From Deltaproteobacteria bacterium (GTDB lineage Bacteria > Desulfobacterota > Desulfobacteria > Desulfobacterales > Desulfosarcinaceae), in assembly GCA_020444075.1 (NCBI GenBank), contig JAHLLR010000001.1, positions 111,782 to 175,781 on the forward strand: a DNA stretch of 64,000 nt, read 5' to 3'. Positions 29,728 to 53,959 of this stretch are shown in pieces. The notes beneath the pieces are model-generated. The model saw only the letters and a list, made by a program, of their open reading frames with translations, was not told the DNA's origin and ran no database searches. Each line of letters starts with the position of its first letter. Positions within the stretch are counted from its first letter, which is position 1. Both the position numbers and the translations under genes were made by a program.

Positions 29728-30549
29728 ATGAATGCTTGTGATTTGCCCATTCCGGACGACAGTTCCCGGCCCAGTTGGAAGAGGCTCGCCTTCGACTGGT
29801 CTCGGGTGATGGCCACCGCCGGCCTGCTCGTCTGGCTCGTCTATGCGAGCGGTGCGGGATTGGGTTATAATTGGCAGTGGTACCGGGTACCTCGTTATCT
29901 GTACACCTTTTCGGAAGGCCATTTTCTGGCGGGCCCCCTGCTCAAGGGGTTGATGGTGACGCTGAAGGTTTCCGCCGTTTCGCTGGTGCTCTCCAGTCTG
30001 CTCGGCCTGGTCACGGCGGTCTGCCGATTATCCGGGTCCTTTGCAGCCCGGGCCGTTTCCCGGGGCTACCTGGAGCTGATCCGCAACACCCCCCTGCTCG
30101 TGCAGCTGTTTTTTATCTACTTCGTATTTTCGCCCATGGTGGATCTCAGCCGCTTTGCATCGGCGGTTTTGGCGTTGAGCCTGTTCGAAGGGGCGTATGC
30201 CTCGGAAATCATCCGCGCCGGCATCCTGGCCGTTCCGCAGGGCCAGTGGGAAGCGGCTGAAAGCATCGGCCTGGGCCGGTTGCCCACCTACCGGCATGTG
30301 GTGCTGCCCCAGGCCCTTCGGCACATGACCCCGCCGCTGGTCAGCCAGGCCGTCTCCCTGATCAAAGATTCCGCGCTGGTGAGCACCATCGCTATCTACG
30401 ATCTGACGATGAAAGGCCAGGAGATCATCGCAGAAACCTATCTGGTATTCGAACTCTGGTTCACCATCGCGGCCATCTACCTGATATTGACCCTGTCTCT
30501 GTCACTGGCCGCCCAGGCCATGGAAAAGCGGCTGGCACTGACAGGTTGA
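29728..30549 (+). CDS. Polar amino-acid ABC transporter permease
   Basis: 273 residues. Membrane protein of the HisM/GlnP class: GLMVTLKVSAVSLVLSSLLG, then ELIRNTPLLVQLFFIYF, and the EAA loop EAAESIGLGRLPTYRHVVLP that docks the ATPase. It is the first gene of a permease / binding protein / permease set. Start at ATG 29728 has no clear ribosome site. No ATP-binding protein of this class is nearby. Confidence 0.92.
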   Translation: MNACDLPIPDDSSRPSWKRLAFDWSRVMATAGLLVWLVYASGAGLGYNWQWYRVPRYLYTFSEGHFLAGPLLKGLMVTLKVSAVSLVLSSLLGLVTAVCRLSGSFAARAVSRGYLELIRNTPLLVQLFFIYFVFSPMVDLSRFASAVLALSLFEGAYASEIIRAGILAVPQGQWEAAESIGLGRLPTYRHVVLPQALRHMTPPLVSQAVSLIKDSALVSTIAIYDLTMKGQEIIAETYLVFELWFTIAAIYLILTLSLSLAAQAMEKRLALTG

Positions 30550-30603
30550 AATGGTTGGGTGTGACACTGGAAATCATTTTTTATCAAGGAAAGGAGTGTA
30601 GGT

Positions 30604-31428
30604 ATGAAAATCGTGACACGTATGACCCGAATGATTTTCCTGACCGTTCTGGTATTCACCCTGGCCGGCGTCCCCGGCGCAATGGCCGCAGACAGCCAGG
30701 ACAGTGTTGTGGAGCAGGTGATCCAGCGCGGGGTGCTGCGGGTGGGCATGTCCACCTTCGTGCCCTGGGCGATGAAGGACAAAACCGGAAAACTGATCGG
30801 TTTTGAAATCGATGTGGCCACACGCCTGGCCGAAGACATGGGCGTCAAAATCGAATTCGTTCCCACCAAGTGGTCCGGCATCATCCCGGCGCTGCTCACC
30901 GGCAAGTTCGACGTCATCATCGGCGGCATGGGCATCCTGCCCAGCCGCAACCTGAAGGTCAACTTCACCAATCCTTATGATTTTACGGGAATGTCCATGG
31001 TGGCCAGCAAAAAAATGGCGGCCGGCATGACGGGAATCGAGGCATTCAACAAACCCGGCGTCATCATTGCGGCCCGCCTGGGGTCCACCGCAGTCACGGC
31101 CACCAAGAAATATCTGCCCAACGCGGAAATCCGCATGTTCGACGACGAGGCCCAGGCCTACCAGGAGGTGATCAACGGACGCGTGCATGCCGTGGTCGGC
31201 TCGGCCCCCACACCGGCCTTCCAGGCCATCAAATATCCGGACAGGCTCTTTCTGCCGATCCAGGGTACATTTACGCGGGAACCCATCGGATTTGCCGTGA
31301 AAAAAGGTGATGTGGACACCTTGAATTATTTTAACAACTGGATCGGCTACGTGGATGCCGAAGGCTGGCTGAAAGAACGCAAGACCTACTGGTTTGAAAC
31401 CAAAGACTGGGAATCTCAACTCCAGTGA
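30604..31428 (+). CDS. Periplasmic amino-acid-binding protein (family 3)
   Basis: 274 residues. A Sec signal peptide (residues 1-28, cleavage near AMAAD) precedes the SBP_bac_3 domain: RGVLRVGMSTFVPWAMKD, GFEIDVATRLAEDMG, KFDVIIGGMGILPSR, and REPIGFAVKKGD. The Arg in PSRNLKV is the usual ligand for the amino acid carboxylate. AGGAG lies eight bases before ATG. Substrate is a polar or aromatic amino acid; not determinable. Confidence 0.93.
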   Translation: MKIVTRMTRMIFLTVLVFTLAGVPGAMAADSQDSVVEQVIQRGVLRVGMSTFVPWAMKDKTGKLIGFEIDVATRLAEDMGVKIEFVPTKWSGIIPALLTGKFDVIIGGMGILPSRNLKVNFTNPYDFTGMSMVASKKMAAGMTGIEAFNKPGVIIAARLGSTAVTATKKYLPNAEIRMFDDEAQAYQEVINGRVHAVVGSAPTPAFQAIKYPDRLFLPIQGTFTREPIGFAVKKGDVDTLNYFNNWIGYVDAEGWLKERKTYWFETKDWESQLQ

Positions 31429-32315
31429 CCGGAAAAAAGATCAGAATCACCACCACGGACCTGATCCTGTTGACCGGGATCGGGGCCGCCGTGGTGTGGC
31501 TGCTCTACCACGCCACTGCGCAGGCCCATTACCGGTGGAACTGGCCGGCTATACCCCAATACCTGCTGCGCCTGGACACCGAGAGCGGCAGATGGGTGCC
31601 CGGTCTGATTCTCCAGGGGGTGATGGTCACCCTGCGCTTGAGCATCTGGGCGACCCTGCTGGCCATGATCATCGGCACGGTCATGGGGCTGTTCAGGACC
31701 AGTTGCAGCCGCTACCGCCGAATGATCGGAAGCGGTTACGTGGAGTTGATCCGCAACATTCCGGTATTGGTGTGGATCTTCATTTTCTACTATTTTATCG
31801 GGGACCGTCTCCTGCCGGCCATCGGCATCAGCCGGGCGACCCTCATGGACGGCGGTCCCCTGTCCGGAATCCTGCGCCTGCTCATGGCCGAGCCCTCCCG
31901 CGTGCCGATGTTCATCTCCGGCACCGTGGCTCTGGCGGTATACGAAGGCGCCTACATCACCGAAATCATCCGCGCGGGCATCCAGTCCATCGACAAGGGC
32001 CAGTGGGAAGCCTCGTCGGGCCTGGGGTTCAGCCGGGCCCAGCAGCTGCGCCACATCATCTTTCCCCAGGCCCTGCGGCGGATCATGCCGCCCCTGGCCG
32101 GCCAGTTCATCTCCACCATCAAGGATTCGGCCATCGTCTCGGTGATCTCCATCCAGGAACTGACCTTCCAGGGAATGGAGCTGATGGCCGCCACCTTTCT
32201 CACCTTCGAGGTATGGATCACCATTCTGGCCATCTACTTCGTGCTTTGCCTGATCTGCTCTTTGCTGGTGGAGCGGTTCGAGCTGCACCTGAAAAAAGAG
32301 GCCCGGCCGGCCTGA
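31425..32315 (+). CDS. Polar amino-acid ABC transporter permease
   Basis: 296 residues, second permease of the set, with GVMVTLRLSIWATLLAMIIG, ELIRNIPVLVWIFIFYYF and the EAA loop EASSGLGFSRAQQLRHIIFP. Starts with GTG overlapping the TGA of the binding-protein gene (GTGA), so it is translationally coupled. Its central loop between helices 3 and 4 is longer than in the first permease. Confidence 0.92.
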   Translation: MTGKKIRITTTDLILLTGIGAAVVWLLYHATAQAHYRWNWPAIPQYLLRLDTESGRWVPGLILQGVMVTLRLSIWATLLAMIIGTVMGLFRTSCSRYRRMIGSGYVELIRNIPVLVWIFIFYYFIGDRLLPAIGISRATLMDGGPLSGILRLLMAEPSRVPMFISGTVALAVYEGAYITEIIRAGIQSIDKGQWEASSGLGFSRAQQLRHIIFPQALRRIMPPLAGQFISTIKDSAIVSVISIQELTFQGMELMAATFLTFEVWITILAIYFVLCLICSLLVERFELHLKKEARPA

Positions 32316-32362: not shown

Positions 32363-33535
32363 CTAATCGGCCATCACGAATTTGCCGTCCCGGACCTGAA
32401 CGATCACCATGGAATCCACATCCAGGCCATTGTGGTCTTCCGGGGTGAGGTTGTATACGCCGGAGACGCCGACATAGCCTTTGGTCTGCTCGATGGCCGA
32501 CCGGAGATCGTCAGCCTTGACACCGGCCTTTTTCATGGCGTCGGCCACGATCATGATGGCATCCCAGGCATATCCGGAGTGCGTGTTGATGGGAAACTGC
32601 TTGTCGTAGCCGTAGACATCCGTGTAGAGCCGGATGAACTCCTTGATGACCGGCTTCTGGGGATCGCTGTCGGGCAGCGCATCCGCAACCATCAATTTGG
32701 TGGCCGGCATGCGGTCGCCTTCGGAGGCCTTGCCGGCCAGTTCGATGTATTTGGGATCCGGCAGGCCGTGGCATTGGAACAGGGGCAGGTCGATGCCCAG
32801 CTGGGCTTTGTTTTTGGAGACGATGGATCCGGCCGGACCGATCGTCCAGACCACCAGAGCCTGGGGCCCGGCGTTTTTGGCATTGGTCAGCTGAGCGGTC
32901 ATGTCGGTGTCTGTGGGGCCGAAAGCTTCCTGGGCGATCACTTCGATGCCGAATTCGGGAGCCAGTGTGGTCAGCCAGCGCACACCGTCCTTGCCGAAAC
33001 CGTCGGATGCGGTGAGCAGGGCGATTTTGGTGAGCCCCTTGTCTTTGAGGTACATATAGAGCCGTTTGACGGCCACCGACGACCGCTGGGGCGATTTGAA
33101 CACCCAGTCGAAGGGACCCAGTTTCTCTCCTCCCATGATCACCGGGTCGCCGCCCACCGTCATGAACGCCGGCACCCGGCCGCCGTGAATGATTTTTTTG
33201 ACCGCCATGCCGGTACCGGTGCGTGTGGGACCAATGATGGCGGCCACCTTGTCCTTGTAGATGAACTTTTTGGCGATGTTGACGGCCTTGGCCGGATCGC
33301 CCTCGGTGTCGCCGACGATCAGCTCGATGGGCGTGCCGTTGACACCGCCCTCCTTGTTGATCTTATCCACCACCATATCGGCGACCAGCTTGGTGGGTGT
33401 GCCGATGAAGGCCGCCGGACCGGACAGGTCGAAAAAGGCACCGATCTTGATCGTATCCTTGGCCGCGGCGCTGCCCCCGGAAAAACCCATCATCAAAACA
33501 ACGGCCATAACCGCCAATCCATTCATCCGTCTCAT
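32363..33535 (-). CDS. livK: Branched-chain-type ABC substrate-binding protein
   Basis: 390 residues. Signal peptide (residues 1-25), then a type-I periplasmic fold with TIKIGAFFDLSGPAAFIGTP, IIGPTRTGTGMAVKK, VWTIGPAGSIVSK and GYAWDAIMIVADAM, characteristic of Leu/Ile/Val and aromatic-acid binding proteins. A GA-rich ribosome site precedes ATG. It is separated from the ATPase/ligase gene by 253 bases with a large hairpin, but belongs with livF-G-M-H. Confidence 0.92.
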   Translation of the reverse strand: MRRMNGLAVMAVVLMMGFSGGSAAAKDTIKIGAFFDLSGPAAFIGTPTKLVADMVVDKINKEGGVNGTPIELIVGDTEGDPAKAVNIAKKFIYKDKVAAIIGPTRTGTGMAVKKIIHGGRVPAFMTVGGDPVIMGGEKLGPFDWVFKSPQRSSVAVKRLYMYLKDKGLTKIALLTASDGFGKDGVRWLTTLAPEFGIEVIAQEAFGPTDTDMTAQLTNAKNAGPQALVVWTIGPAGSIVSKNKAQLGIDLPLFQCHGLPDPKYIELAGKASEGDRMPATKLMVADALPDSDPQKPVIKEFIRLYTDVYGYDKQFPINTHSGYAWDAIMIVADAMKKAGVKADDLRSAIEQTKGYVGVSGVYNLTPEDHNGLDVDSMVIVQVRDGKFVMAD

Positions 33536-33788: not shown

Positions 33789-35894
33789 TCAGACGATTTC
33801 GTCCGTGATTCGGCTGTCAAACACCCGCTGGCTCTTGCGCTCGGTGCGGGGGAGCCGGCCGTAGTCCACCAGTTCGACATCGATGGAAACCAACAGCTGC
33901 CTTTTTACCTGATAGATGGTTTCATGCACCAGCTCCGCCGTCCGGTCGGCATCAACGGCCTGCCCCCTTTCGATGACCAGTTTCATGGAATCCTTCCCGG
34001 ATGAACCATCGCGGGTCAGGACGATCTGGTATTCGGAGCCCAGCCCCGGAATCGCCGAGAGAATGGTATCGATGGTGGAGGGGTAGATGTTGACGCCCCG
34101 GAATTTGATGGTGTCGTCGCTGCGGCCCTTGATGCGGGAGTGGCGGGGCATGACCGAGCCGCAGGTGCATTTGCCGGGAATGATGCGGGTGATGTCCCGG
34201 GTCCGGTAGCGGATCAACGGCGCCGCTTCCTTGCACAAGGTGGTGACCACCATCTCCCCCCACTCGCCGTCCGGCAGGGGCTGCAGCGTTTCCGGATCGA
34301 TGATTTCCATAATGTAGTAATCGCCCCAGTAATGGATGCAGTCATGATCGGCGCACTCGATGCCGGTGCCGGGACCGTATAGTTCGGTGAGGCCGGTGAT
34401 GTCGAAGAGCTCGGCGCCGCCGAAGAGTTCGGATATTTTCCGGCGCATGGATCGTGAGCTGCGCTCGGAACCGTAAATAATTTTGCGGATGTTGATTTTA
34501 TCGGCGATGCCGCGGCGATGGATCTCCTCGGCCATGAGCAGGGCCATGGAGGCCGTACTGCAAAAGACCGTCGAGCGGACATCCTGCATGAACTGGAGGT
34601 GCATGTCGATATTGCCCGGCCCTACCGGGACAGCCATGGCGCCGACCTTCTCGCATCCCAGCTGAAAGCCCATGCCGGCCGTCCAGATCCCGTAGCCCAC
34701 GGCAATCTGTACCCGGTCCAGGGGGGTGACGCCGGCCATTTCATAGCAGCGCGCAAAAAAGTGAATCCAGTCGTCCAAGTCTTTCTGGGTGTAGCCGATG
34801 ATCTTGCGCTTGCCGGTGGTGCCCGAACTGGCGTGGATGCGCACGATCTGTTCAAAGGGAACCGCGCGCAGGGGAAACGGATAGAACTCGCGCAGATCGT
34901 CGGCGGTGGTAAACGGCATCCGCCTGAGATCTTCCATGCTCCGGATGGACGCGGGGGTGACTCCGGCCGCTTCCAGACGCTGGCGGTAAAAGCTGGAGCC
35001 TTCAAAGGCATGGCGGACGGTCCACTGCAGTCCGGTGAGCTGGTGGGCGGCCAATGCCTGGTCATCGGGGAAATCGGGCATAAACGTGTGTCGATGCATG
35101 TCGGGTTTCTCCAAACGGATGTTGGTCAGTCCGGCTGCCCCCAGCCGGCTGGCCGCTGGTTTCTCTTTGCTGGCGGCGCCCAGAAAGGCAGCGCGCAGCT
35201 TGGGGTCGACGAGCAGGTCCTGACTGCTTCCCTGTTGGACAATGCGTCCGCCGGCCATCAGAAAAGCTTTATGGGAGGCCGACAGCGCTCGGGCGGCATT
35301 CTGCTCCACCAGCAGGATGGTCACGCCGGAACGCGCCAGCTGGTGGATAATTGCAAAGATCTCATCGGTGATCAAAGGGGCCAGGCCCAGGCTGGGTTCA
35401 TCCAGCAGCAGCAATCGCGGCCGGGCCATCAAGGCGCGCCCCATGGCCAGCATCTGCTGCTCGCCGCCGGACAGGGTCCCTGCCGCCTGGTCCCGGCGCT
35501 CGGCCAGACGACCGAAACGGTCGTACACGGCCTGCATGCGGCGGGCGACTTCCTTTCGTCCCGTTTTCAATGCAGCCGTGCCCATCTGCAAATTTTCCGC
35601 TACGGTCAGGTGCGGAAAGACCTCTCTTCCTTCCGGAGTCAGGGCCAGGCCCTGGCGAACCATCTGCACCGGTGAGTTGCCGGTGACGTCATGACCCTCC
35701 AGGAAGACTTCTCCTGCCGAGGGTTTCATGAGACCCATGATGCATTTCAACAGGGTGGTTTTACCGGCGCCGTTGGCGCCCACCAGGGCGACCGTCTCCC
35801 CCGGATCGATGGTCAGGTCCACCCCGAACAGAGCCTGTGCAGCCCCGTAATGGGCAGTCAGGTGGTCGATGGAGAGCAAATGGGGTTGGGTCAT
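33789..35894 (-). CDS. LivF ABC ATPase fused to phenylacetate-CoA ligase
   Basis: One open frame of 701 residues. Residues 1-238 are a LivF-type ATPase: GANGAGKTT (Walker A), LSGGEQQMLAMGRAL (signature), LLLLDEPSLGLAP (Walker B), LLVEQNA. A ~27-residue linker follows, and from about 266 (MHRHTFMPDF) to the end a full-length phenylacetate-CoA ligase of the PaaK type: HASSGTTGKRKI (AMP-binding), TGLTELYGPG, YRTRDITRI. The ATG is one base after the livG stop. ATG 35099, at the PaaK junction, is in frame and has GGAG nine bases upstream, so a separate ligase might also be made. Activates aryl acetates to CoA esters; LivF powers uptake. Confidence 0.88.
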   Translation of the reverse strand: MTQPHLLSIDHLTAHYGAAQALFGVDLTIDPGETVALVGANGAGKTTLLKCIMGLMKPSAGEVFLEGHDVTGNSPVQMVRQGLALTPEGREVFPHLTVAENLQMGTAALKTGRKEVARRMQAVYDRFGRLAERRDQAAGTLSGGEQQMLAMGRALMARPRLLLLDEPSLGLAPLITDEIFAIIHQLARSGVTILLVEQNAARALSASHKAFLMAGGRIVQQGSSQDLLVDPKLRAAFLGAASKEKPAASRLGAAGLTNIRLEKPDMHRHTFMPDFPDDQALAAHQLTGLQWTVRHAFEGSSFYRQRLEAAGVTPASIRSMEDLRRMPFTTADDLREFYPFPLRAVPFEQIVRIHASSGTTGKRKIIGYTQKDLDDWIHFFARCYEMAGVTPLDRVQIAVGYGIWTAGMGFQLGCEKVGAMAVPVGPGNIDMHLQFMQDVRSTVFCSTASMALLMAEEIHRRGIADKINIRKIIYGSERSSRSMRRKISELFGGAELFDITGLTELYGPGTGIECADHDCIHYWGDYYIMEIIDPETLQPLPDGEWGEMVVTTLCKEAAPLIRYRTRDITRIIPGKCTCGSVMPRHSRIKGRSDDTIKFRGVNIYPSTIDTILSAIPGLGSEYQIVLTRDGSSGKDSMKLVIERGQAVDADRTAELVHETIYQVKRQLLVSIDVELVDYGRLPRTERKSQRVFDSRITDEIV

Positions 35895-35895
35895 G

Positions 35896-36660
35896 TCAGG
35901 CAGTCGCCTCCATGCGGCCCAGGTAGGCCTCCAGAACCAGGGGGTTGCTGCGGACCGCCTCCGGCTTTCCAGAGGCAATGCAGCGACCGCTGTCCAGGAC
36001 CACCACCTGGTCCGCCACCTCCATCACCAGTTCCATGTCGTGCTCCACCAGCAGCATGGTGTGGCCGGCGCTGCGCTGTCGGCGGATGTGGCGCGCAATC
36101 TGCGCCGTTTCTTCGGTGTTCAACCCGGCCACCGGCTCGTCCAGCAGCACCAGCCGGGGATCGCTCACGAAGGCGCGCGCCATCTCCACCCGTTTTTTTT
36201 CGCCGTAGGAGAGCGACGATGCCGGCCAGTGCGCTTTTTTTGCCAGGCCGAAGTCATCCAGTGCCTTCAGGGCGCGCAGGCGAAGCTGCCGCTCCTGGTG
36301 GCGCAGGGCCGGCAGACGCATCATGGAAACGGCAAAAGAGCGCTCGGCCGCCACCGTCAGGCCGGTCAATACGTTGTCCAGCACCGTCAGCCGGGAAAAC
36401 AGCTTCAGATTCTGAAAGGTGCGGGCAACGCCCAGGGCGGCAATTTTGAACGCCGGCAGGGCTTCTACCGGGCGTCGCGCCAAAAGAACGCTGCCGGCCT
36501 GAACCCGGTCCACGCCGCTGATGCAATTGATCAGGGTGGATTTGCCGGCGCCATTGGGTCCGATGAGCGCCGTCACCTGCCCCGGGGCAATGCGAAACGA
36601 GACATCCTGCAAGGCCGGCAGGCCGCCGAACCATTTGCTGACATTTCTCAATTCAAGCAT
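35896..36660 (-). CDS. livG: Branched-chain-type ABC transporter ATPase LivG
   Basis: 254 residues. GPNGAGKSTLINCISG (Walker A), ARTFQNLKLF (Q-loop, the LivG pattern), LSYGEKKRVEMARAF (signature) and LVLLDEPVAGLN (Walker B). Pairs with LivF under the LivH/LivM membrane subunits. Overlaps livM by eight bases and is followed after one base by the livF-ligase start. Confidence 0.94.
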   Translation of the reverse strand: MLELRNVSKWFGGLPALQDVSFRIAPGQVTALIGPNGAGKSTLINCISGVDRVQAGSVLLARRPVEALPAFKIAALGVARTFQNLKLFSRLTVLDNVLTGLTVAAERSFAVSMMRLPALRHQERQLRLRALKALDDFGLAKKAHWPASSLSYGEKKRVEMARAFVSDPRLVLLDEPVAGLNTEETAQIARHIRRQRSAGHTMLLVEHDMELVMEVADQVVVLDSGRCIASGKPEAVRSNPLVLEAYLGRMEATA

Positions 36661-37642
36661 GACGATTCAAGGCGATGCGCGTCCGCACCGCGTCGACAAT
36701 GCCCGTCACCAGTCCCTGGGGCAGAAAGAGCAGAATCATGACCAGGATCAGGCCATGGATGATGTCTTTGAACGATTCCAGGGCCTCGATCCATTCGGGC
36801 AGCAAGGTGATCAGGGCCGTACCGAACAGGGTTCCCCAGATAGAGCCCATGCCGCCCACCACCACCATGATCACAAAATCCACGGAAACGAAAATATTGA
36901 ACGAATCCGGGCTCACAAAGGCATAACAGTGGGCGAACAGGCTGCCGGCCACCGAGGCCAGCACCGCCGACAGGATAAACACTTTCACCTTGGCGCGGCG
37001 GGTGTCCACCCCCAGTGCGGCCGCCGCGGTTTCATCTTCCGCCAGGGCCGCCAGTCCCCGTCCCACACCGCTGCGCACCAGGTTGAGGCACAGCAGAAGC
37101 GCGACCATGGCAAAGGTCCACACCAGGTAGTGAAAATGGATTTCGTTGTCGAACACCACGGAACCGATGGTAAGATAGGGGATGCCGGCGAAACCGCTGG
37201 GCCCGCCGGTTACCGCATCCCATTGCACCAGGATGGTATACACGACGATGTTGAACCCTAAAGTCGCCATGGCCAGGTAGTGTCCGCTCAGCTTGAGTGC
37301 GGGGAGCCCCACCGCCAGGGCGATCAGGGCGGCAACCAGGGCGACCGCCATCATGACAGGCCAGGCCGGTCCGCCCAGTGTGACGGTGCCGATGGCCGAT
37401 CCGTAGGCGCCGATGGCGAAAAAAGCGGCGTGTCCCAGACTGATCTGGCCGGCATAGCCGATGAACAGGTTCAGCCCCAGTACCACGATCGCATAGATGG
37501 CGATCAGGTTGGACAGGCCCAGGTTGTAAGGGTTGCTCTCCATCACCGGCCAGGCCACCAGCACCACGCCCAGGGCCAGCACGGTCAGGCCGGTGCGGTG
37601 CAGGTATATAAAATAGAAGAGGTTGTCTCTGGTCGTTAGCAT
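36653..37642 (-). CDS. livM: Branched-chain-type ABC transporter permease LivM
   Basis: 329 residues, about nine to ten membrane helices. Conserved segments include LNLFIGYAGQISLGHAAFFAIGAY, LSGHYLAMATLGFN, AALGVDTRRAKV (EAA-like loop) and VVVGGMGSIWGTLFG. The ATG at 37642 has a weak ribosome site. Separated from livH by 143 bases containing a 16-bp inverted repeat. Confidence 0.93.
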   Translation of the reverse strand: MLTTRDNLFYFIYLHRTGLTVLALGVVLVAWPVMESNPYNLGLSNLIAIYAIVVLGLNLFIGYAGQISLGHAAFFAIGAYGSAIGTVTLGGPAWPVMMAVALVAALIALAVGLPALKLSGHYLAMATLGFNIVVYTILVQWDAVTGGPSGFAGIPYLTIGSVVFDNEIHFHYLVWTFAMVALLLCLNLVRSGVGRGLAALAEDETAAAALGVDTRRAKVKVFILSAVLASVAGSLFAHCYAFVSPDSFNIFVSVDFVIMVVVGGMGSIWGTLFGTALITLLPEWIEALESFKDIIHGLILVMILLFLPQGLVTGIVDAVRTRIALNRHA

Positions 37643-37785: not shown

Positions 37786-38652
37786 TCACTTTCCCAGCAA
37801 CCCTTTCGGCCGGACAAAAAGCACCAGCAGCAACACCACGAATGCCGATACATCCTTGTATGCACTGCTCCAGTATCCGGCGGACAGGGATTCCAGCAAC
37901 CCCAGCAGCAACCCTCCCAGCACGGCGCCGGGGAAAGAGCCGAACCCGCCCAGGATGGCGGCGGCGAAGCCCTTGAGTCCCAGCAGCACTCCCACGTCAT
38001 AGCTCAATGTGGTGATGGGGGTCACCAGCACACCGGCCAGGCCGCCCAATCCGCCGGCCAGGGCAAAGCTGGCCGCCTTGACGCGCCCCACGGGAATACC
38101 CACCACCGCGGCTGCCGTCTGATTGGAAGCCACGGCACGCATGCACAGGCCCAGCCGGGTACCGCGGAAAAAAAAGACCAGCAGCCCGATGGCCAGGGTG
38201 GTGATGACCAGGATGGCCACGGCCTGCGGCAAAATGGCGGCACCGGCGATGCGCAGAGGTTCCTCGCCCGCCAGCGGTGGAACGGCCATGCGGTTTTTTC
38301 CCCAGATCAGCTTCATGCCGCCGCGCAGGATAATGGAAATGCCGATAGTCAGAAAGATCAGCACCAGGTGGTTCTGGGACCGGGACGGCCGGACCCCCAG
38401 ACGCTCCACGACGATTCCCACCAGGGTAACGGCCGCCACGGCGCAGGGCAGAGCCACCACCATGGGCAGGCCGCTCCAGAACAGTCCGCTGAACAGGAAC
38501 ATGCCCCCCAGGGAGACAAAATCCACCTGGGCAAAATTGACGATGCCGATGGTGTTGTGCACCACGCAGAACCCCAAGGCGATCAGGGCATAAATGGCAC
38601 CGCTGGTGATCCCTGCAAACACGAACTGCAGCAGGTCCTGGAAACCGGACAA
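37786..38652 (-). CDS. livH: Branched-chain-type ABC transporter permease LivH
   Basis: 288 residues, about eight membrane helices; FAGITSGAIYALIALGFCVV, GIVNFAQVDFVSLGG, LGLCMRAVASNQTAAAVVGI (EAA-like) and GFAAAILGGFGSFPGAVLGG are typical. The start is read as TTG at 38652 because GGAGG lies four bases before it; the frame can be extended to another TTG at 38673. First gene of the leftward liv-ligase transcription unit. Confidence 0.92.
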   Translation of the reverse strand: MSGFQDLLQFVFAGITSGAIYALIALGFCVVHNTIGIVNFAQVDFVSLGGMFLFSGLFWSGLPMVVALPCAVAAVTLVGIVVERLGVRPSRSQNHLVLIFLTIGISIILRGGMKLIWGKNRMAVPPLAGEEPLRIAGAAILPQAVAILVITTLAIGLLVFFFRGTRLGLCMRAVASNQTAAAVVGIPVGRVKAASFALAGGLGGLAGVLVTPITTLSYDVGVLLGLKGFAAAILGGFGSFPGAVLGGLLLGLLESLSAGYWSSAYKDVSAFVVLLLVLFVRPKGLLGK

Positions 38653-38688
38653 TGTTCCTCCGCATAGAAACAATTTTGATTTTAAAGA

Positions 38689-38891: not shown

Positions 38892-41800
38892 ATGACTGGA
38901 TCGAAGCCGACCGTCAGGAATTCATGGATGAGCCGGACCCTGATCATCCTCCTTGGCGGCATTCTTTTGGCAGGCGCCTTTACCACCTGGTGGACGGTCA
39001 GGCAAGCGAACCGCTATATGCGCGAGGACCTGCTTTACCAGGCCCGTCTCGTGGCTCAGACAGTGGATATCAAACGGATCCTGTCGCTTTCGGGTTCCGA
39101 TGCCGACCTGATTGCAGCTGACTATCTCCGACTCAAGGAGCAGTTGGCCTGTATCAGAAAAGCCAGCGCAGGATGTAAATTCATTTACCTCCTCGGCCGC
39201 CGGGAAAATGGCCCTGTTTTCTTCTTTGTGGACAGCGAACCGCCTGGCTCAGAAGACGAATCCCCGGCCGGCCAGATCTACGAAGAGGTATCCAGCGAGG
39301 ACCTGAGGGCTTTTGAAGAGAAGAGGGCCCTGACCTCGGGACCGGCCAGCGACCGCTGGGGGACATGGATCAGCGCCCTGGTGCCCCTGACCGACCCTGA
39401 TTCCGATGCCCTGGTCGCGGTCCTGGGAATAGATTTTGATGCCCGCGACTGGCAACGGAAACTGAAGCAAACTGCATTACCGTCGATCCTGTTTACCCTG
39501 GCCACGATGGCACTGTTGACTGTCGGGGCATACCTTCTCAACCGGCGCACCAATGGTGACGATCAGCCACCCCATCACTACCGATACCGGCCGATAATTC
39601 TTGTAATCGTCATCACTGGATCGTTCCTGAGCTTGTCGACGGCCTGGATAACCAATGGACAGACCATCCATTCGCGCCGCCAGGCCTTCCGGCAACTGGC
39701 ACAGGACAAGGCCAGCGCCATCGCCAAGGCCCTCCATACCTTGCGTCATACCGAACTGGAGGCCCTGGCGCGTCTTTTTGAAGCCAGCGAGTACGTAAGC
39801 CCGAAAGAGTTCAACGATTACACCGATTATCTGCTAAAGAATCCTGTGATCCGGACCTGGGCCTGGGCCCAGTGGATGCCGGCTTCGGACCGGGAGCGCA
39901 TGGAGGAGCAGATCCGTGCCGAGGGTCTCTCTGAATTTTCGATTTGGCAACGGGATGTGAACGGCAACCGCCTTCCCGTCGCAAAGCGCGACGACGGCTA
40001 CTGCCCAATCATCCGTGCAGCGCCTGCAGAAAGAAAGCGGGAGGCGCTGGGGTTCGATCTCGGTTCCGATCCGTTGCGGCAAAGGGCGCTGGAAGCGGCC
40101 GCACACAGCGGTCTGACCACCTGCAGCGCCCCCATCGGTAATCCGGGAGAGCCGAACACGCCGGCAATCATTCACGTTTTCCGACCCATCTTTGCGCAGG
40201 ACAACGCTTCCCGCCTGCGCGGATTTGCATTGGCCGATCTTCAACCTGCCGCGCTTCTGAAAAGCGCACGCCCAACCGATGCGGTTCTCCTGGAGCTGGC
40301 GATTGGTATTTCCGGAACGGCCATCGAAACCCTCGCCGCGTCCTGGGAACGCGGCAGCTTTCCAGATACCCGGTTATCCGTGACATACCCAATCTTCGAA
40401 TTCGGCCAGGTATTTCTGGTAACTGCTTATGCAGGATCGGCATTCATGAAGCTCTACGCCTTCCGGGTGGCGTGGCTGGTCCTGATCGCCGGTTTGATGC
40501 TAACGATACTGCTGGCCGGATGGTTCGGATCCGTCCATCGCAAACGGGAGCAACTGGAAAGGCTGGTCGAGGAGCGTACCCGCAGTCTTGTCGAAACCCG
40601 GAATCAGATGGAACTGGTACTGCACGGCGCCGATCTGGGCGCCTGGGAATGGTGCGTGCCCTCCGACGCAATGATCGTCAATGAAAACTGGGCGAAGCTA
40701 ATCGGGTACCGGTTCGACGAAATCGGGCCGCTTCTCGAAAACTGGAGAGGGTTGATCGCGCCTGAAGACATAACTGCCGCGAACGAGGCCATGCAGTTGC
40801 ACCTGGAAGGTCAATCGGATTTTTACGAGATCGAACATCGCCTGCTGCACAAGGCGGGGCATTATATCTGGGTGCTGGCCAAAGGCCGCGTGATCGAAAG
40901 GGATGCGGAGGGCTGCCCGCTAAGGGTCTGCGGAACATGCCTCGACACCACCAAACACAGACAGGTCGAGGCGGCATTGAAAACCAGTGAAACACTCCTG
41001 CGAACACTGATTGACACGCTGCCTGATCTGGTCTGGCTCAAGGATCCGCAGGGGGTTTACCTGGCCTGCAACAAACGTTTTGAACGTTTGTATGGGGCGA
41101 AAGAAGCCGACATCATTGGTAAAACCGATTATGATTTTGTAGACCCGGAGTTGGCCGATTTCTTCCGGAAAAAAGATGAGGCCGCCATGGTGGCGGGCAG
41201 CGCCTGCCTGAATGAGGAAGAGCTTACCTTTGCCGACGATGGCCATCGCGAACTCGTGGAAACCATTAAGACACCGATGGTGGACGCGCGAGGCAGGCAG
41301 ATTGGCGTGCTGGGCATTGCCCGGAACATCACCGACCGCAAACGCACCATGGAGATGCTTCGCCTGTCCGAGGAGAAATTTTCCAAAATTTTTGCCATGT
41401 CGCCGGATATCATCGCCATCACCCGCTTGCAGGACGGAAAGATCATGGATGTCAATATCGGCTTCGAGGAGACCACCGGCTGGAAAAGAAGCGAGGTCGT
41501 GGGGCGAACATCGGCCGACATTCAATTCTGGGCCGATCCGTCGGCTCGAGAGGATATGGTAACCGAATTGATGGCCGGCCGTGATGTCCTGCATCGCGAA
41601 ATAGAATTCCGGCGCAAAGACGGTAACAGGAGGATCGGTGTTTATTCAGCCCGAATGATCCGTATTTCGGACGAAGTGACGTTGATTTTCATCCTGCAGG
41701 ATATCACCAAAAGCAGAAGTCTGGAAGCTCAGCTGCAACAATCCCAGAAGCTGGAAGCCGTGGGCGTCCTGGCCGGAGGAGTGGCCCACGACTTCAATAA

Positions 41801-42866
41801 CATGCTGGGAGCCATCATAGGGTATGCCGAACTGTCCATGAGCACACTGGATTCGTCCGATCCCATGCGCAGAAATTTCAACAAGATCCTCGACGCCGCC
41901 CAGCGTTCGGCCAACCTTACCCGGCAGCTCCTGGCCTTCGCCCGTAAACAGACAATCGAACCGGTGGTGTTCGACCTCAATGCCTCGATCGAAGGCACCC
42001 TGAAAATGCTGCGCCGGCTCATCGGTGAAAACATCGAATTGGCCTGGCAGCCAACGACCGTAAAATGCTCCGTTTGCATGGACCCCGGCCAGCTGGACCA
42101 GATCCTGGCCAACCTGTGCGTCAACGCCCGGGATGCCATCGCGGAGGTCGGCAAAATAACCATAAAAACCAGCACTATATTGTTCGACGAGATCTCTTGC
42201 AGCGCCTATGCCGACTGTGTCCCCGGGGAGTACGTACGGCTCACCATCGGCGACGACGGTTGTGGCATGGACCGGGAGACCCAGGACCACATCTTTGAAC
42301 CCTTTTTTACCACCAAGGGAATCGGCCAGGGCACGGGATTGGGGCTGGCCACCGTATACGGTATTGTCAAGCAGAACCAGGGATTTATCCAACTTTACAG
42401 TGAGTCCGGCATCGGCACGACCTTCGATATTTACCTGCCCCGGCATGCCGGTGGCGCCGAGACCGCGATCAAAGACAGCGACGATGCGATCCCGTACAGC
42501 CAGGGCGAGACCATCCTGATGGTGGAAGACGATCCCACCATGCGGGAAATGGGTCTGCTGATGCTGCAGCGTCTGGGGTACACCGTTCTCCCGGCGGCAA
42601 CGCCCGGCGAGGCCATCCGAATGGCCGAGGACGAGCACACGGACATCCAGCTGTTCATCACCGACGTGGTCATGCCCGAAATGAACGGCCGTGAACTGGC
42701 CGACCGGCTGCTGGCGATTCGGCCGGGGATGAAGCACCTGTTCATGTCCGGCTACACCGCCGATGTCATCGCCCACCAGGGCGTGCTGGAGGAAGGGGTC
42801 AACTTCATCCATAAGCCGTTTACGGTGAAGGATTTGGCTGTCAAGATCCGGGCGGTGCTGGCATGA
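38892..42866 (+). CDS. Hybrid histidine kinase with CHASE, three PAS and receiver domains
   Basis: 1324 residues. A membrane helix (about 16-36) precedes a first periplasmic sensor region; helices near 195-215 and 233-253 lead to a CHASE domain (RRQAFRQLAQDKASAI, NPVIRTWAWAQWMPA); another helix lies near 520-540. Three PAS domains follow, then HisKA with GGVAHDFNN (His966), a HATPase with CVNARDAI and GQGTGLGLATVYG, and a C-terminal receiver with Asp1258 in FITDVVMPEM. Two external sensor regions in one kinase are unusual. No output regulator is beside it. It is divergent from the liv-ligase operon, so it may sense a transported amino or aryl acid; this is inference. Confidence 0.92.
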   Translation: MTGSKPTVRNSWMSRTLIILLGGILLAGAFTTWWTVRQANRYMREDLLYQARLVAQTVDIKRILSLSGSDADLIAADYLRLKEQLACIRKASAGCKFIYLLGRRENGPVFFFVDSEPPGSEDESPAGQIYEEVSSEDLRAFEEKRALTSGPASDRWGTWISALVPLTDPDSDALVAVLGIDFDARDWQRKLKQTALPSILFTLATMALLTVGAYLLNRRTNGDDQPPHHYRYRPIILVIVITGSFLSLSTAWITNGQTIHSRRQAFRQLAQDKASAIAKALHTLRHTELEALARLFEASEYVSPKEFNDYTDYLLKNPVIRTWAWAQWMPASDRERMEEQIRAEGLSEFSIWQRDVNGNRLPVAKRDDGYCPIIRAAPAERKREALGFDLGSDPLRQRALEAAAHSGLTTCSAPIGNPGEPNTPAIIHVFRPIFAQDNASRLRGFALADLQPAALLKSARPTDAVLLELAIGISGTAIETLAASWERGSFPDTRLSVTYPIFEFGQVFLVTAYAGSAFMKLYAFRVAWLVLIAGLMLTILLAGWFGSVHRKREQLERLVEERTRSLVETRNQMELVLHGADLGAWEWCVPSDAMIVNENWAKLIGYRFDEIGPLLENWRGLIAPEDITAANEAMQLHLEGQSDFYEIEHRLLHKAGHYIWVLAKGRVIERDAEGCPLRVCGTCLDTTKHRQVEAALKTSETLLRTLIDTLPDLVWLKDPQGVYLACNKRFERLYGAKEADIIGKTDYDFVDPELADFFRKKDEAAMVAGSACLNEEELTFADDGHRELVETIKTPMVDARGRQIGVLGIARNITDRKRTMEMLRLSEEKFSKIFAMSPDIIAITRLQDGKIMDVNIGFEETTGWKRSEVVGRTSADIQFWADPSAREDMVTELMAGRDVLHREIEFRRKDGNRRIGVYSARMIRISDEVTLIFILQDITKSRSLEAQLQQSQKLEAVGVLAGGVAHDFNNMLGAIIGYAELSMSTLDSSDPMRRNFNKILDAAQRSANLTRQLLAFARKQTIEPVVFDLNASIEGTLKMLRRLIGENIELAWQPTTVKCSVCMDPGQLDQILANLCVNARDAIAEVGKITIKTSTILFDEISCSAYADCVPGEYVRLTIGDDGCGMDRETQDHIFEPFFTTKGIGQGTGLGLATVYGIVKQNQGFIQLYSESGIGTTFDIYLPRHAGGAETAIKDSDDAIPYSQGETILMVEDDPTMREMGLLMLQRLGYTVLPAATPGEAIRMAEDEHTDIQLFITDVVMPEMNGRELADRLLAIRPGMKHLFMSGYTADVIAHQGVLEEGVNFIHKPFTVKDLAVKIRAVLA

Positions 42867-45691: not shown

Positions 45692-45795
45692 CTCTATGGT
45701 TTTCGTTCACTGCTCACCGTTCACGGATCACGGTTTCCCCTTCACGGCCCCTAAGCAGCCGAACCAACAATTGAAACTGCAGGTTGAGAAAGTCA

Positions 45796-46368
45796 ATGCA
45801 AAGCAAATCCCATTATCAGATTGTAATCAGTGGCGTGGGCGGACAGGGGGTATTGTTTATTACCCGGCTGCTGGCCGAAGCGGCTATCGAAAAAGGCTTG
45901 CCCGTTTTTACGTCGGAAACCCACGGCATGGCCCAGCGGGGCGGCACGGTGATCTCGCATCTCAAGGTCGGTGAATTTGCCAGCCCGCTGATCAGCCCGG
46001 GCCAAGCCGACGGCCTGATAGCCCTCAAGGCCGAAAGCCTGGACCAGCACGGCGGCTATCTCAAGCCGGGGGGGTGGGCCGCGGTTAACGTCCCTGCGCC
46101 ATTGACGATGCCGGCAGCGGCAACACCGTTCTATCTCGATGCAGACCGGCTGGCCCGGGAAATGGACAACCCCCGATCCGTGAATCTCATCATGCTGGGA
46201 TTTACCCTTTCCAGCGCCCAACGGGGAGGCTTCGGCCACGGATCGCTCCATTGTTCCCTCAATGATATCGAAGCCGTTCTGGAAAACCGCCTGAAGGGCA
46301 AAACGAACCGGCTGCAGTCGTCCCTCCGGGCGCTCAAGGCCGGGGCCGACAGCACCACAGCGACCTGA
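45796..46368 (+). CDS. iorB: Indolepyruvate ferredoxin oxidoreductase beta subunit
   Basis: 190 residues. POR-gamma-type domain: IVISGVGGQGVLFITRLLAEAA, SETHGMAQRGGTVISHLK and LMLGFTLS-like region. Pairs with IorA. The ATG 45796 is preferred to an in-frame TTG at 45784. The 104-base gap after iorA contains a simple repeated sequence (TTCACGGATCACGG-like) rather than a gene. Confidence 0.95.
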   Translation: MQSKSHYQIVISGVGGQGVLFITRLLAEAAIEKGLPVFTSETHGMAQRGGTVISHLKVGEFASPLISPGQADGLIALKAESLDQHGGYLKPGGWAAVNVPAPLTMPAAATPFYLDADRLAREMDNPRSVNLIMLGFTLSSAQRGGFGHGSLHCSLNDIEAVLENRLKGKTNRLQSSLRALKAGADSTTAT

Positions 46369-48864: not shown

Positions 48865-51800
48865 ATGCAACAGCAAACCGTCCGGAAAACCATGAAATAC
48901 GTAATTGCTCTTTGCTGGCTGTCACTTTCTGTCGCCGGAAACCTTTTTGCAGAGACACCGCAATCTGTCCAGGTCACGGGAAACAACCTTGTTCCCGATG
49001 TCACTGGCACCTATGAAAAACACGGAACGCACGGATCTTTCGGGCATGATTACTGGGTCCGTGACGACGGAGCCTATTTTATCTATTCCGATGAATACGG
49101 TGGTGAAGGATACTGGAATATCGATGTCGATCTGAACGATGATGACGAAGTTTATTTCTACAGCGATCAGGATTTGTCCGACCCGATTCCATTCGCCGAT
49201 CTGGTTTCCCCCGACATGGTGGGTTCCGACTGGACGCCTTTGGATGGGACCGGGTCTCCGACCGTGTCGATTGGCGGAGTTGATTTCCCTGAAATTAATG
49301 TGACCGGCAACGCTACCAATATCGATAGCGGAGATGACACACCGACATTTGCCGACCATACCCAGTTCGGTTCCGCCAATATTTCATCAGGAACGACAGC
49401 GCGAACATTTACCATACAAAACAACGGATCTTCGGCTCTAACCGTCAGCGGTGTATCCATCATCGGAGAAAACAGCTCCGATTTCTCAATAACCGCATCA
49501 CCGGCGGCGTCGGTTGCGTCTTCCAGTTCCACGTCTTTTGCCGTCACCTTCAATCCGTCCGCTGTCGGCAACCGGAATGCAACCATTACCATTGCCAATA
49601 ACGATGCCGATGAAGGCAGTTATTCCTTCGATATCCGGGGGTACGGATTCACGCCCGGGGACGTCACGGTGTCAAACATCGACAATCCGGCGGCCGCCAA
49701 CGGAACCTATCTCCATCAGGGCGTCATCTATGAATGCCAGTATTGGAAACACGCAACTGAGAACTATTGGATATTCAACGACGACTTCAGCGGGACACGC
49801 TATTGGAATTTGGATGCGGATACCGACGATACGGATGAAGACTGGTTTTTTTATATCGCTTCCGAAGGCGGGACACCCACCGGGCTCACCGGATGGACGG
49901 CCAATGCAACTACGAGTGCCGATGGTGATCCGTTTATCTCCGTGGGGGCACCGATCCCCGAAATCAATGTTCAGGGCAACAGTGCAGATATTGCCGACGA
50001 CGATACCACGCCTTCCTTTAGCGATCACACCCATTTCGGTTCGGTGGATATCGCGTCCGGTTCGCGTGAAAGGACATATATCGTTCACAACCAGGGAAAC
50101 GCGACACTGAATTTATCAGGCGTGACCATCGGCGGGGCAGACGCTTCCGATTTCAGTTTGACCACGACACCGGCCGCAGCTGTTGCCGCTGCGGAATCCA
50201 CGACCTTCGTCATTGCCTTCGCGCCGGCCGCAACCGGCACAAAATCGGCAACGGTTTCCATCGACAGCGACGACAGCGACGAAGGCACATACACGTTCTC
50301 CATTCAAGGCGACGGCTTCACCCCCCGGGATCTGGTCGTTTCAACCATCACCGAGCCGGTGGCGGCAAACGGCACCTATGTTCATCAGGGAATCGTTAAT
50401 GAGTTCCAGTATTGGAAACATGAATCGCTATCCTTCTATCTGTTCAATGATGACTTCAGCGGTACACGCTACTGGAATATAGATGTGGATACCGACGATA
50501 CGGATGAGGACTACCTGTATTACAAAGAATCCGTTGCCGCGACGCCGGCAGGCCTGACCGGCTGGACGGCGCATGCCGATGTATCGGGTTCGCCGACGAT
50601 AGCCGGTGCCGGTCCGGAGATGAGCGTCGAGGGCAACGGCAGCACCATTGCGGATGGCGATACGGCACCATCCATCACGGACCATACGGATTTCGGAACG
50701 GTGGATGTTGCCTCAGCAACGTTATCACGCACCTTCACCATCCTGAATACCGGTACTGACCCACTGACTCTCAGCGGCACCCCCGTTGTGGCCATATCGG
50801 GAAGCAACGCCGCGGATTTCACGATAAGCCTGCCACCGGCAGGCACCGTGGCGGCGGCTGGGACAACGACGTTTACCGTTCGGTTCGATCCATCGGCAAT
50901 CGGGACCCGCATGGCTCAGGTCAGCATCGAGAATGACGATACTGACGAGAATCCCTATAATTTCAGCATTCAGGGAACCGGCGCCGCCGCCCCCGTGATC
51001 GACAACCTCTCCGGCGATACCCTGGCCTATGAGGAAGGCGACGGCGCCGTGGTGATTGACCAGGGAACGGCTGCGGGTGTAAGCGACGCGGACAGCGTCG
51101 ACTTCGACGGCGGAACACTGACCGTGGCCATCGGCGCAGGGAAGGATAACGCCGAAGACACCCTGTCCCTGTATACCGGTGGGACAGTGTCCATGGCCGG
51201 CACCGCCATGGGATCGAACCTGTCGGTGGACGGGACATTGATCGGTACTCTGGGGAGCACCATTGCCGCCGGAGAGGATCTGGTAGTGAATTTGAACAGC
51301 AGCGCCACTGCCGCCAATACGGCGACCTTGATTGCGGCCGTGACCTATGAGAACACGGATACGGCCACCCCTACCACCGGTGGGCGAACCATCGATTTCA
51401 TCTTGAGCGACGGAGACGGTACGACGTCGGCCACGTTCAGCGCCACGGTGACGGTAAGCGCCGTTAACGATGCGCCGCTAATCGTCAACCAGGTCGCCCG
51501 CGGTCCCATTGAAACCTTTCCCCTGACCATCACCTTGAACGATCTGGTCGTCACCGACGTCGACAACACCTACCCTGACGATTTCACCCTCACGGTCCAG
51601 GACGGTCCCGACTACGATCGTTCCGGCCCGACAATCACGGTTGCCGAAGATTATACCGGCTTTCTCACAGTCCCCGTCATTGTCAATGACGGTACGGATA
51701 ACAGCGCCGTTTTCAATCTATCCATCTATGCCGCGGAGGATCATGATAATGACGGCATGCCAACGGTCTGGGAGCAACAGAACGGCCTCGATCCCCTGGC

Positions 51801-52866
51801 GGACGATGCGGCCCTCAACCCCGACAACGATGGATTGACCAACCTGCAGGAGTATCGGACCGGGACCGACCCCCAGGCGGAAACGCCAGGTCCCGGCGTG
51901 GCGGTGCTCGTTTTACCGGATCACCTGGCGACCGGGCAAGCTCTCTCCCTGCCGCTGGAAACAGGCTACTCAGCCACGGGACTTGAATCGCTTCATGCCC
52001 AAACCCGTTGGCAGATCTCCCTAAACCCGGATTTTTCAGGAGCGGCCGCCATACTCGATAGTACCTCCGAAAACCACAAAACCGGGATAACGGTTCCACT
52101 CAGCGTTCTTGAACCCGGAACCCCTTACTACTGGCGGGTTGGCTATATCGATAGCGATGGGCTACTGTGGCCCTGGTCAGATTCGAGAATGTTTACGACC
52201 ACACCAGACAGTGGCGACGGGAACAGCAACGGGCTTCCCGACGACCAGGAGGTCGCCGCGGGAACGACATCGGATCTGGACGCCGATGGAAACGACGATC
52301 TCTCCCAGGCAGACATGCACTGTGTGGCGCTGGCCGACGGCTCCGGCTGGACCTGTCTCAAAGACACGGCAGCCAGTGCCGTCGAAGAATTTTACAGCAT
52401 CGACAGCGATGTAATCACGGACACGGACGGCAGGCCGGACAACCTCCCCTTCGGCATGTTCGGATTCAGGCTGGCGGTGGCCCCCGGAGATTCGGTGACG
52501 GTGAGCAAATACTATTCAACCGCCCTGCCCGAGAATGTCTCCTGGTACAAGCATGACAGCATCAGCGGCTGGTTCGATTATTCGGGCTATGTGACCATTA
52601 GTGTCGACCGCCGGTCGGTGGCAATCGAACTTACCGACGGCGGGTATGGAGACGCGGACAGCGTTGCCAACGGGGTGATCGTCGATCCGTCCGGACCGGC
52701 GGGTGGTGATAATTCGGGTGTAAACGGACCACAGATCGGAAGTGGTGGGGGTGGCGGCGGCTGTTTTATCACCACAGTTTCGGGTGATCACCTTGGTATG
52801 GGCGGGAGGGCATGCCGTTGGCTCATCAGTGTTGCCGGTCTATCAGCGGGGTGTGGATGTCAATGA
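48865..52866 (+). CDS. Large secreted repeat protein with Hydin-like domains and CFI-type C-terminus
   Basis: 1333 residues, signal peptide within residues 10-30. Three tandem units of about 225 residues (near 40-265, 270-490, 495-715) each combine a YWxxDxDxDDxDE module, strongest at residues 293 and 516, with a choice-of-anchor-D (ASPM/SPD-2/Hydin) beta domain ([24 protein letters not shown]). Then come cadherin-like segments ([13 protein letters not shown]), calcium-binding thrombospondin-3-type repeats near 959-1005 ([16 protein letters not shown]), a fibronectin-like part and [11 protein letters not shown], resembling the CFI-box C-terminal motif. The tail after CFITT is short and unlike that family, so the C-terminus may be altered. 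Likely exported and surface-associated. Confidence 0.85.
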
Positions 52867-52938: not shown

Positions 52939-53913
52939 TCAAACGGGGAGGACGATGTTGGCCTTATCAAGACATCGGTCCAGCGCAATTTTGGTTTTCT
53001 CTATGGCATCTGGAGGACTCATTTTACGAAGCGGTTCATTCCATGGTTCGACGACAACCGGACCATCGAATCCCAACGCATCGAGTGTTTTGAGCATGCC
53101 GGTTAAATCGATCGTTCCGGTTGCCCCGGGCAGTTCCCTTTGAAATTCAGGCAGGGTGAACCGGTCGTAATCCCCATCCAGGCCGTCATTGACCTCCACA
53201 TAAACGACCTCTTCGGGAGACAGCCGTTCTATATCCAGCAGGCCGGCGCCGCTCGTATACCAATGCAAGGCGTCCAGCTTGATGCCCACGCAGTGTTGGG
53301 AATGGGCTGCCGCAATCAGCGCCCGGATGCCGTCGATGGTGTGGATGAAGTCGAATCGTCGTTCCCGTCGCATGGTCGTCGGGCCGATGAATTCCAGCCC
53401 GAGGCGCACCGCATAGGCTTCCAATAGCGGTTTGATCCGTTTCAACCGCCTGCGCAGAAGGGCGAAGTGCTCGTAATAGTCCAACGTGTTGGAAGATGGC
53501 TGCACATACCCGACGCAGCATTTGAAACCCGCATCCCGGCATAAAGACAAGTCCTGCTCGAATGGGGCAAGGCTTTGCTCGAAATCGGAGTCGGAATAAC
53601 ACGCATTGAAAGCGGCCGAAAATGCGAATGCTCCCGGCTTCAAGTGGTGCTGCTTCATCAGGTCGATGGCTTGGTCGGGACCATGTTCTCTCAGGAAGTG
53701 ACGATCCGCATTGACGGCGTCGAATCCGTATTTCCGGGCCAACCGGCAGCTCTCCTGAAATGGCAGTACATGACCGATGGATCCGCAGTGGGGCCTGTCG
53801 GTGTGCGCGGGTGCATCGGTCACATTCAGCGTCCGGAGCCATCTGCTCCGGACATTCACGGGTGACGGTTTCAATGCCCCTTCAGGCACGGTTCCCGGAT
53901 CAGGGTTTTTCAT
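52939..53913 (-). CDS. Sugar phosphate isomerase/epimerase-type TIM-barrel protein
   Basis: 324 residues of the xylose-isomerase-like (AP endonuclease 2) TIM-barrel superfamily. Metal-ligand segments fit the family: GLEFIGP, KLDALHWYTSG, YVEVNDGLDG and VVVEPWNEP. Homologues include inosose isomerase and inosose dehydratase, hydroxypyruvate isomerase and sugar epimerases. It lies 46 bases after a sugar-phosphate cyclase gene on the same strand, so both probably act on the same cyclitol. The first ~25 residues are not typical and the true start may be internal. Confidence 0.85.
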   Translation of the reverse strand: MKNPDPGTVPEGALKPSPVNVRSRWLRTLNVTDAPAHTDRPHCGSIGHVLPFQESCRLARKYGFDAVNADRHFLREHGPDQAIDLMKQHHLKPGAFAFSAAFNACYSDSDFEQSLAPFEQDLSLCRDAGFKCCVGYVQPSSNTLDYYEHFALLRRRLKRIKPLLEAYAVRLGLEFIGPTTMRRERRFDFIHTIDGIRALIAAAHSQHCVGIKLDALHWYTSGAGLLDIERLSPEEVVYVEVNDGLDGDYDRFTLPEFQRELPGATGTIDLTGMLKTLDALGFDGPVVVEPWNEPLRKMSPPDAIEKTKIALDRCLDKANIVLPV

Positions 53914-53959
53914 TCCAGGTGCCTATCTGTACGAAATCGAATCGGATTCAGTTGCAATT

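Follow-up and report, generated by a model that had tools for sequence, protein, structure and literature searches.

The window (the whole 64,000-nt stretch of DNA analysed here) carries on its minus strand an operon for a LIV-type ABC importer with the gene order livH-livM-livG-[livF~paaK]-livK, in which a single gene lying between livG and livK encodes both a LivF-type ATPase and a PaaK-type acyl-CoA ligase. The following features were located in the operon and its surroundings:

32363..33535, minus strand: livK, periplasmic binding protein (Pfam Peripla_BP_6), related to aromatic-acid binding proteins of Rhodopseudomonas palustris
33789..35894, minus strand: livF~paaK fusion gene, 701 aa, start ATG at 35894 and stop at 33791-33789
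35175..35894, minus strand: LivF-type ABC ATPase domain, residues 1-240 (Pfam, NCBIfam, motifs and fold match to 1ji0)
35079..35174, minus strand: linker, residues 241-272, consensus NPAASRLGAAGLTNIRLEKP (identity, pN/pS, synonymous constraint and pLDDT)
33792..35078, minus strand: PaaK-type AMP-forming acyl-CoA ligase domain, residues 273-701 (Pfam, NCBIfam, motifs and fold match)
35109..35112, minus strand: GGAG, a linker stretch resembling a Shine-Dalgarno (SD) site, 9 bases ahead of the internal ATG
35097..35099, minus strand: in-frame ATG within the gene (residue 266), at the aligned start position of stand-alone ligases
35896..36660, minus strand: livG, partner ABC ATPase (Pfam ABC_tran, BCA_ABC_TP_C)
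36653..37642, minus strand: livM, permease (Pfam BPD_transp_2)
37786..38673, minus strand: livH, permease (Pfam BPD_transp_2)
38892..42866, plus strand: divergent CHASE/PAS hybrid histidine kinase, kept beside livH in the related loci L165 and L167
43871..45691, plus strand: iorA, indolepyruvate ferredoxin oxidoreductase alpha subunit (TIGR03336 equivalog, 655.9 bits, above its cut-off of 650.9)
45784..46368, plus strand: iorB, beta subunit (POR domain; best NCBIfam match under its cut-off)

The hybrid histidine kinase is a possible regulator of the liv cluster. A polar-amino-acid-type ABC importer, comprising two permeases and a family 3 binding protein (29728-32315, plus strand), directly adjoins livK. 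Further along the window, a 1333-residue protein (48865-52866, plus strand) contains repeated HYDIN/ASH-like Ig domains, which are known best from cilia proteins of eukaryotes, and a xylose-isomerase-like TIM barrel gene adjoins a 3-dehydroquinate-synthase-like gene (52939-55111, minus strand).

The first-pass annotation had read a LivF ATPase and a PaaK-type ligase in one frame inside a liv operon, and both points stand. Translation of the minus strand gave 701 residues with no internal stop, and the livH, livM, livG and livK partners were all recognized by Pfam. Several relatives do not have all of these genes adjacent; for example, livHMG did not adjoin the fusion in L123-L126 within the stretch read. 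In the 701-aa protein, Pfam matched ABC_tran (PF00005) at residues 24-168, AMP-binding at 346-551 and AMP-binding_C_2 at 600-695. The ATPase half has the Walker A, LSGGEQQ signature and Walker B motifs, and the ligase half has the A3, A5, A7, A8 and A10 motifs; the A10 lysine is replaced by threonine in one fused member. The curated families were not reached on either side: the fusion scored 249.3 bits against the cut-off of 441 for the LivF equivalog NF008626, and the ligase scored 392 bits against the cut-off of 646.3 for TIGR02155 (PaaK proper). The ATPase half is LivF-like and lies outside the curated E. coli-type equivalog.

The ligase domain has a PaaK fold, with 4r1m and 2y4n as top structure matches, and among the structures listed none spans both the LivF and the ligase domains. 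An AlphaFold model built on a 17-row alignment was poor, and a 108-row alignment was used for the statements on domains. With 108 rows, both domains were predicted well (pLDDT >80 in most blocks; pTM 0.60) and residues 240-262, the linker stretch, had pLDDT <50. Given this low linker confidence and the pTM of 0.60, the predicted model is not reliable on the mutual arrangement of the two domains.

At 65-91% identity, the single-frame architecture recurs far beyond chance: no fewer than 24 further genomes of the phylum carry it, and the refuting case named in the first-pass annotation, two separate genes in all relatives, does not hold. Specifically, when 395 genomes were sampled evenly across the phylum, 15 besides this one had a stop-free fusion (one ended by a contig edge). 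Among 389 genomes of the order, the whole fusion was present in six same-genus genomes and one genome of another family (85-91% identity), with one additional copy cut at a contig end. Same-genus carriers include one assembly of two contigs (G646) and three of one contig each (G652, G700 and G703). A contig search added two further named loci, in Desulforhopalus sp. IMCC35007 (L001) and a Syntrophobacterales MAG (L003). Rows of tblastn that spanned both domains with internal stops (L104, L106, L006, L011 and L136) were not counted as fused; the junctions of two of them were read in detail (L104/L134 and L106/L135). Additionally, L127 has a neighbouring pair of further stand-alone genes for PaaK-type ligases (56% and 60% identity), some 8 kb ahead of its fusion (L127:1670-4426).

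Mean identity among the fused relatives was 75% in the linker (residues 241-272), 72% in the ATPase and 78% in the ligase. The corresponding pN/pS values were 0.31, 0.35 and 0.26, and the linker value indicates that this segment evolves as translated sequence under purifying selection. These patterns indicate that the fusion is old and maintained by selection.

The LivF halves of the fused genes formed one clade (support 100/98) that was recovered in 200 of 200 bootstrap trees, which makes a single origin the simplest reading. The ligase trees require three changes instead of one for the fused members, because two stand-alone groups fall among the fused ligases; the nodes nesting the larger of these groups have moderate support only (88/83 and 81/29). 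Taking the ligase trees, the LivF tree and the shared linker together, one fusion event followed by two ligase releases would be the simplest reading. One apparent release is a stand-alone ligase of a same-genus genome (L164:7368-8654, the same gene as in L154), which groups among the fused ligases; no liv genes were found within the 16 kb read around it.

Two loci appear to show this neighbourhood in an unfused state. L134 has the same gene order, and there a TAA closes livF and a separate ligase start follows within a few bases. In L135 the ligase gene sits after livG, and the search for LivF-like genes gave none above 40% identity; livM and livG appear to be joined in one ORF at this locus (L135:9006-12137). 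The unfused locus lacks the conserved linker of the fused genes, and we infer that two adjacent genes became fused and gained a new linker, which was conserved thereafter. The suggestion in the first-pass annotation that the fusion arose by loss of one stop codon is at odds with this linker, a conserved sequence of its own, and with the single clade of fused LivF halves.

The first-pass annotation had also pointed to an in-frame ATG at 35099 preceded by GGAG, and this proved to be a credible internal start. A start-capable codon (ATG or TTG) lies at or next to the residue-266 point in 25 of 26 fused genes, most of which have an SD-like TGGAG ahead of it. Six of the fused genes have a weak SD-like site, and in L127 the internal start is missing. 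Pairing with the anti-SD sequence at or below -4.5 kcal/mol was obtained for 77% of the scored internal-start sites against 29% of 434 other internal ATGs, counts to be read with the relatedness (hence non-independence) of the sequences and the commonness of GGAG in mind. Moreover, no other window of the five-gene operon showed stronger synonymous constraint than codons 249-263 (permutation P=0.002 over all windows) in a genus set plus one close relative; the constraint belongs to this genus set, and synonymous divergence of the linker was not reduced across the whole family. The same Met is the start of the stand-alone ligases that fall among the fused ones, with TTGGAGA at nearly the same spacing in L157, L005/L162 and L004/L160 and CGGAGA in L154, and the outgroup ligases shown have different SD sequences. 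The leucine, glutamate and lysine encoded at the SD-like stretch are also conserved as residues, a further caveat on the SD reading. The conserved start, the SD-like site and the synonymous constraint together suggest that a free ligase is probably made from the start at 35099 as well.

The iorAB genes of the window are on the strand opposite to the liv operon, 5 kb off and past the divergent hybrid histidine kinase. In four relatives iorA and iorB sit between livH and livM (L001:2680-4997, L118:12042-14299, L119:8379-10582 and L122:2138-4445), so that a 2-oxoacid oxidoreductase is interleaved with the importer genes, and in four others (L168, L169, L170 and L171) iorA is directly divergent from livH. 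PaaK-type ligases convert a free acid to an acyl-CoA. IorAB converts arylpyruvates to arylacetyl-CoA, a reaction for which PMC5109826 cites Pyrococcus furiosus and which it proposes for Desulfococcus multivorans. The R. palustris relatives of the livK product include CouP, which binds phenylpropenoids and 4-hydroxyphenylpyruvate (PMC3610893); in a hand-read alignment with an assumed numbering offset, CouP Arg197 and Ser222 were apparently not conserved here, and we therefore name no ligand for the binding protein. The best reading of the operon is a putative uptake and CoA-activation module for aryl or related 2-oxo acids. As for the aryl acid named as substrate in the first-pass annotation, the ligase family and the iorAB association make it likely, whereas the assignment to PaaK proper falls short of the PaaK-specific NCBIfam cut-off.

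The explanation we favour starts from what is observed, namely the fusion, its conservation, the coding linker, the intact motifs and the shared start position. A livF gene would have been joined in frame, most likely once, to the paaK-type gene downstream of it. The full-length fusion would act as the LivF subunit of a LIV-type importer and hold the ligase at the inner (cytoplasmic) face, where an imported carboxylic acid, for which an arylacetate or a related aryl acid is the likeliest candidate, would be converted to a CoA thioester and so be kept inside the cell. With the ligase start and ribosome-binding site persisting in the linker, a free ligase would probably be made too. We give roughly even odds (about 0.5) to this explanation, in which a conserved fusion tethers a CoA ligase to a LIV importer and traps the imported acid, with free ligase as a probable additional product. 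It suggests that in some sulfate-reducer-like bacteria import and chemical trapping of a nutrient may be physically linked. The ligase has its own ATP-binding P-loop, and each domain its own nucleotide site, which argues for tethering and proximity rather than shared energy; the direct coupling of uptake energy to CoA trapping put forward in the first-pass annotation is unsupported. The stand-alone descendants of fused ligases count against the favoured explanation, since they show that the ligase can work without LivF.

A LIV importer is expected to contain one LivF. PaaK ligases are described as dimers (PMC8388817; PMC4498308), with some family members listed as monomers in the same review, and with a single LivF per importer the free ligase could supply the second protomer beside the importer-anchored one. 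On this reading one gene would yield two products, an anchored LivF-ligase and a free ligase that dimerises with it, and import and CoA trapping would form one membrane-bound assembly, with the ribosome-binding site itself translated as part of the linker. We propose this two-product reading tentatively and regard it as somewhat doubtful.

Three other explanations were considered. The full-length protein might tether the ligase with the internal start unused, the linker being kept as protein, for example for docking on LivG or the ligase. The family-wide conservation of the linker amino acids while codons change fits such a role, as do the fused genes without a good internal SD or start; against it, synonymous sites are constrained within the genus, the start-capable codon persists in an otherwise variable stretch, and stand-alone relatives use the same start with a similar SD, so that we consider it unlikely. 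The fusion might instead serve co-expression, with both activities used at separate pathway steps and the tether having no role in uptake; the importer may then bring in amino acids or arylpyruvates to feed iorAB, leaving the ligase to salvage free acids. The iorAB link would allow acyl-CoA to be made from 2-oxo acids without the ligase (PMC5109826), and released ligases do occur with no liv genes found nearby. This explanation seems improbable to us, however, as several families have retained the architecture and its specific linker despite large divergence.

An assembly error or the recent loss of a single stop codon between two genes would agree with the unfused neighbours and intervening stop of L134. 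The probability of either is negligible: assembly error was ruled out by the recurrence of the fusion across genomes, some of them on one or two contigs, and the linker is conserved and absent from the unfused locus. The livF~paaK fusion is real, neither an artefact nor a recent stop loss.

Joining an ABC importer ATPase covalently to an acyl-CoA ligase would amount to genetically hard-wired metabolic trapping, and splitting this one protein would make it possible to test a long-standing question, whether uptake is driven by activation at the membrane. In addition, the embedded start would show how a fused gene can still make its unfused partner. The literature searched, which was restricted to open-licence papers, yielded no account of a LivF-PaaK fusion with an embedded ligase start.

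Compared with the LivF of LIV-type (branched-chain amino acid family) ABC importers (1ji0), the ATPase half has the same Walker A, LSGGEQQ and Walker B motifs and the same livG, livH, livM and livK partners, whereas the fusion adds a linker and a complete acyl-CoA ligase at the C-terminus. The ligase half shares its fold, the A3/A5/A7/A8/A10 motifs and 39-40% identity over the whole domain with PaaK-type phenylacetate-CoA ligases (2y4n and 2y4o; BT_0428, 4r1l), and differs from them in being joined to LivF and in scoring under the PaaK equivalog cut-off. In vectorial acylation, an acyl-CoA synthetase drives acid uptake, as in FadL/FadD. The shared idea is that CoA activation at the membrane draws acid uptake, and the difference is that the ligase here is a covalent part of an ABC importer subunit, with a putative role in uptake. 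For CouPSTU of R. palustris we know of no ligase fusion. Both CouPSTU, which imports aromatic acids, and the present system are LIV-type ABC importers with related binding proteins (PMC3610893), whereas two of the ligand residues of CouP are apparently not conserved here. The IorAB arylpyruvate modules of sulfate reducers likewise have iorAB beside genes for aryl-acid use; for the module of Desulfococcus multivorans, a TRAP importer and an unfused ligase were reported, in contrast to the LIV importer and fused ligase found here (PMC5109826). Both halves of the protein, and trapping by CoA activation as an idea, are already known; what appears to be new, on limited evidence, is the covalent LivF-ligase architecture with its embedded ligase start.
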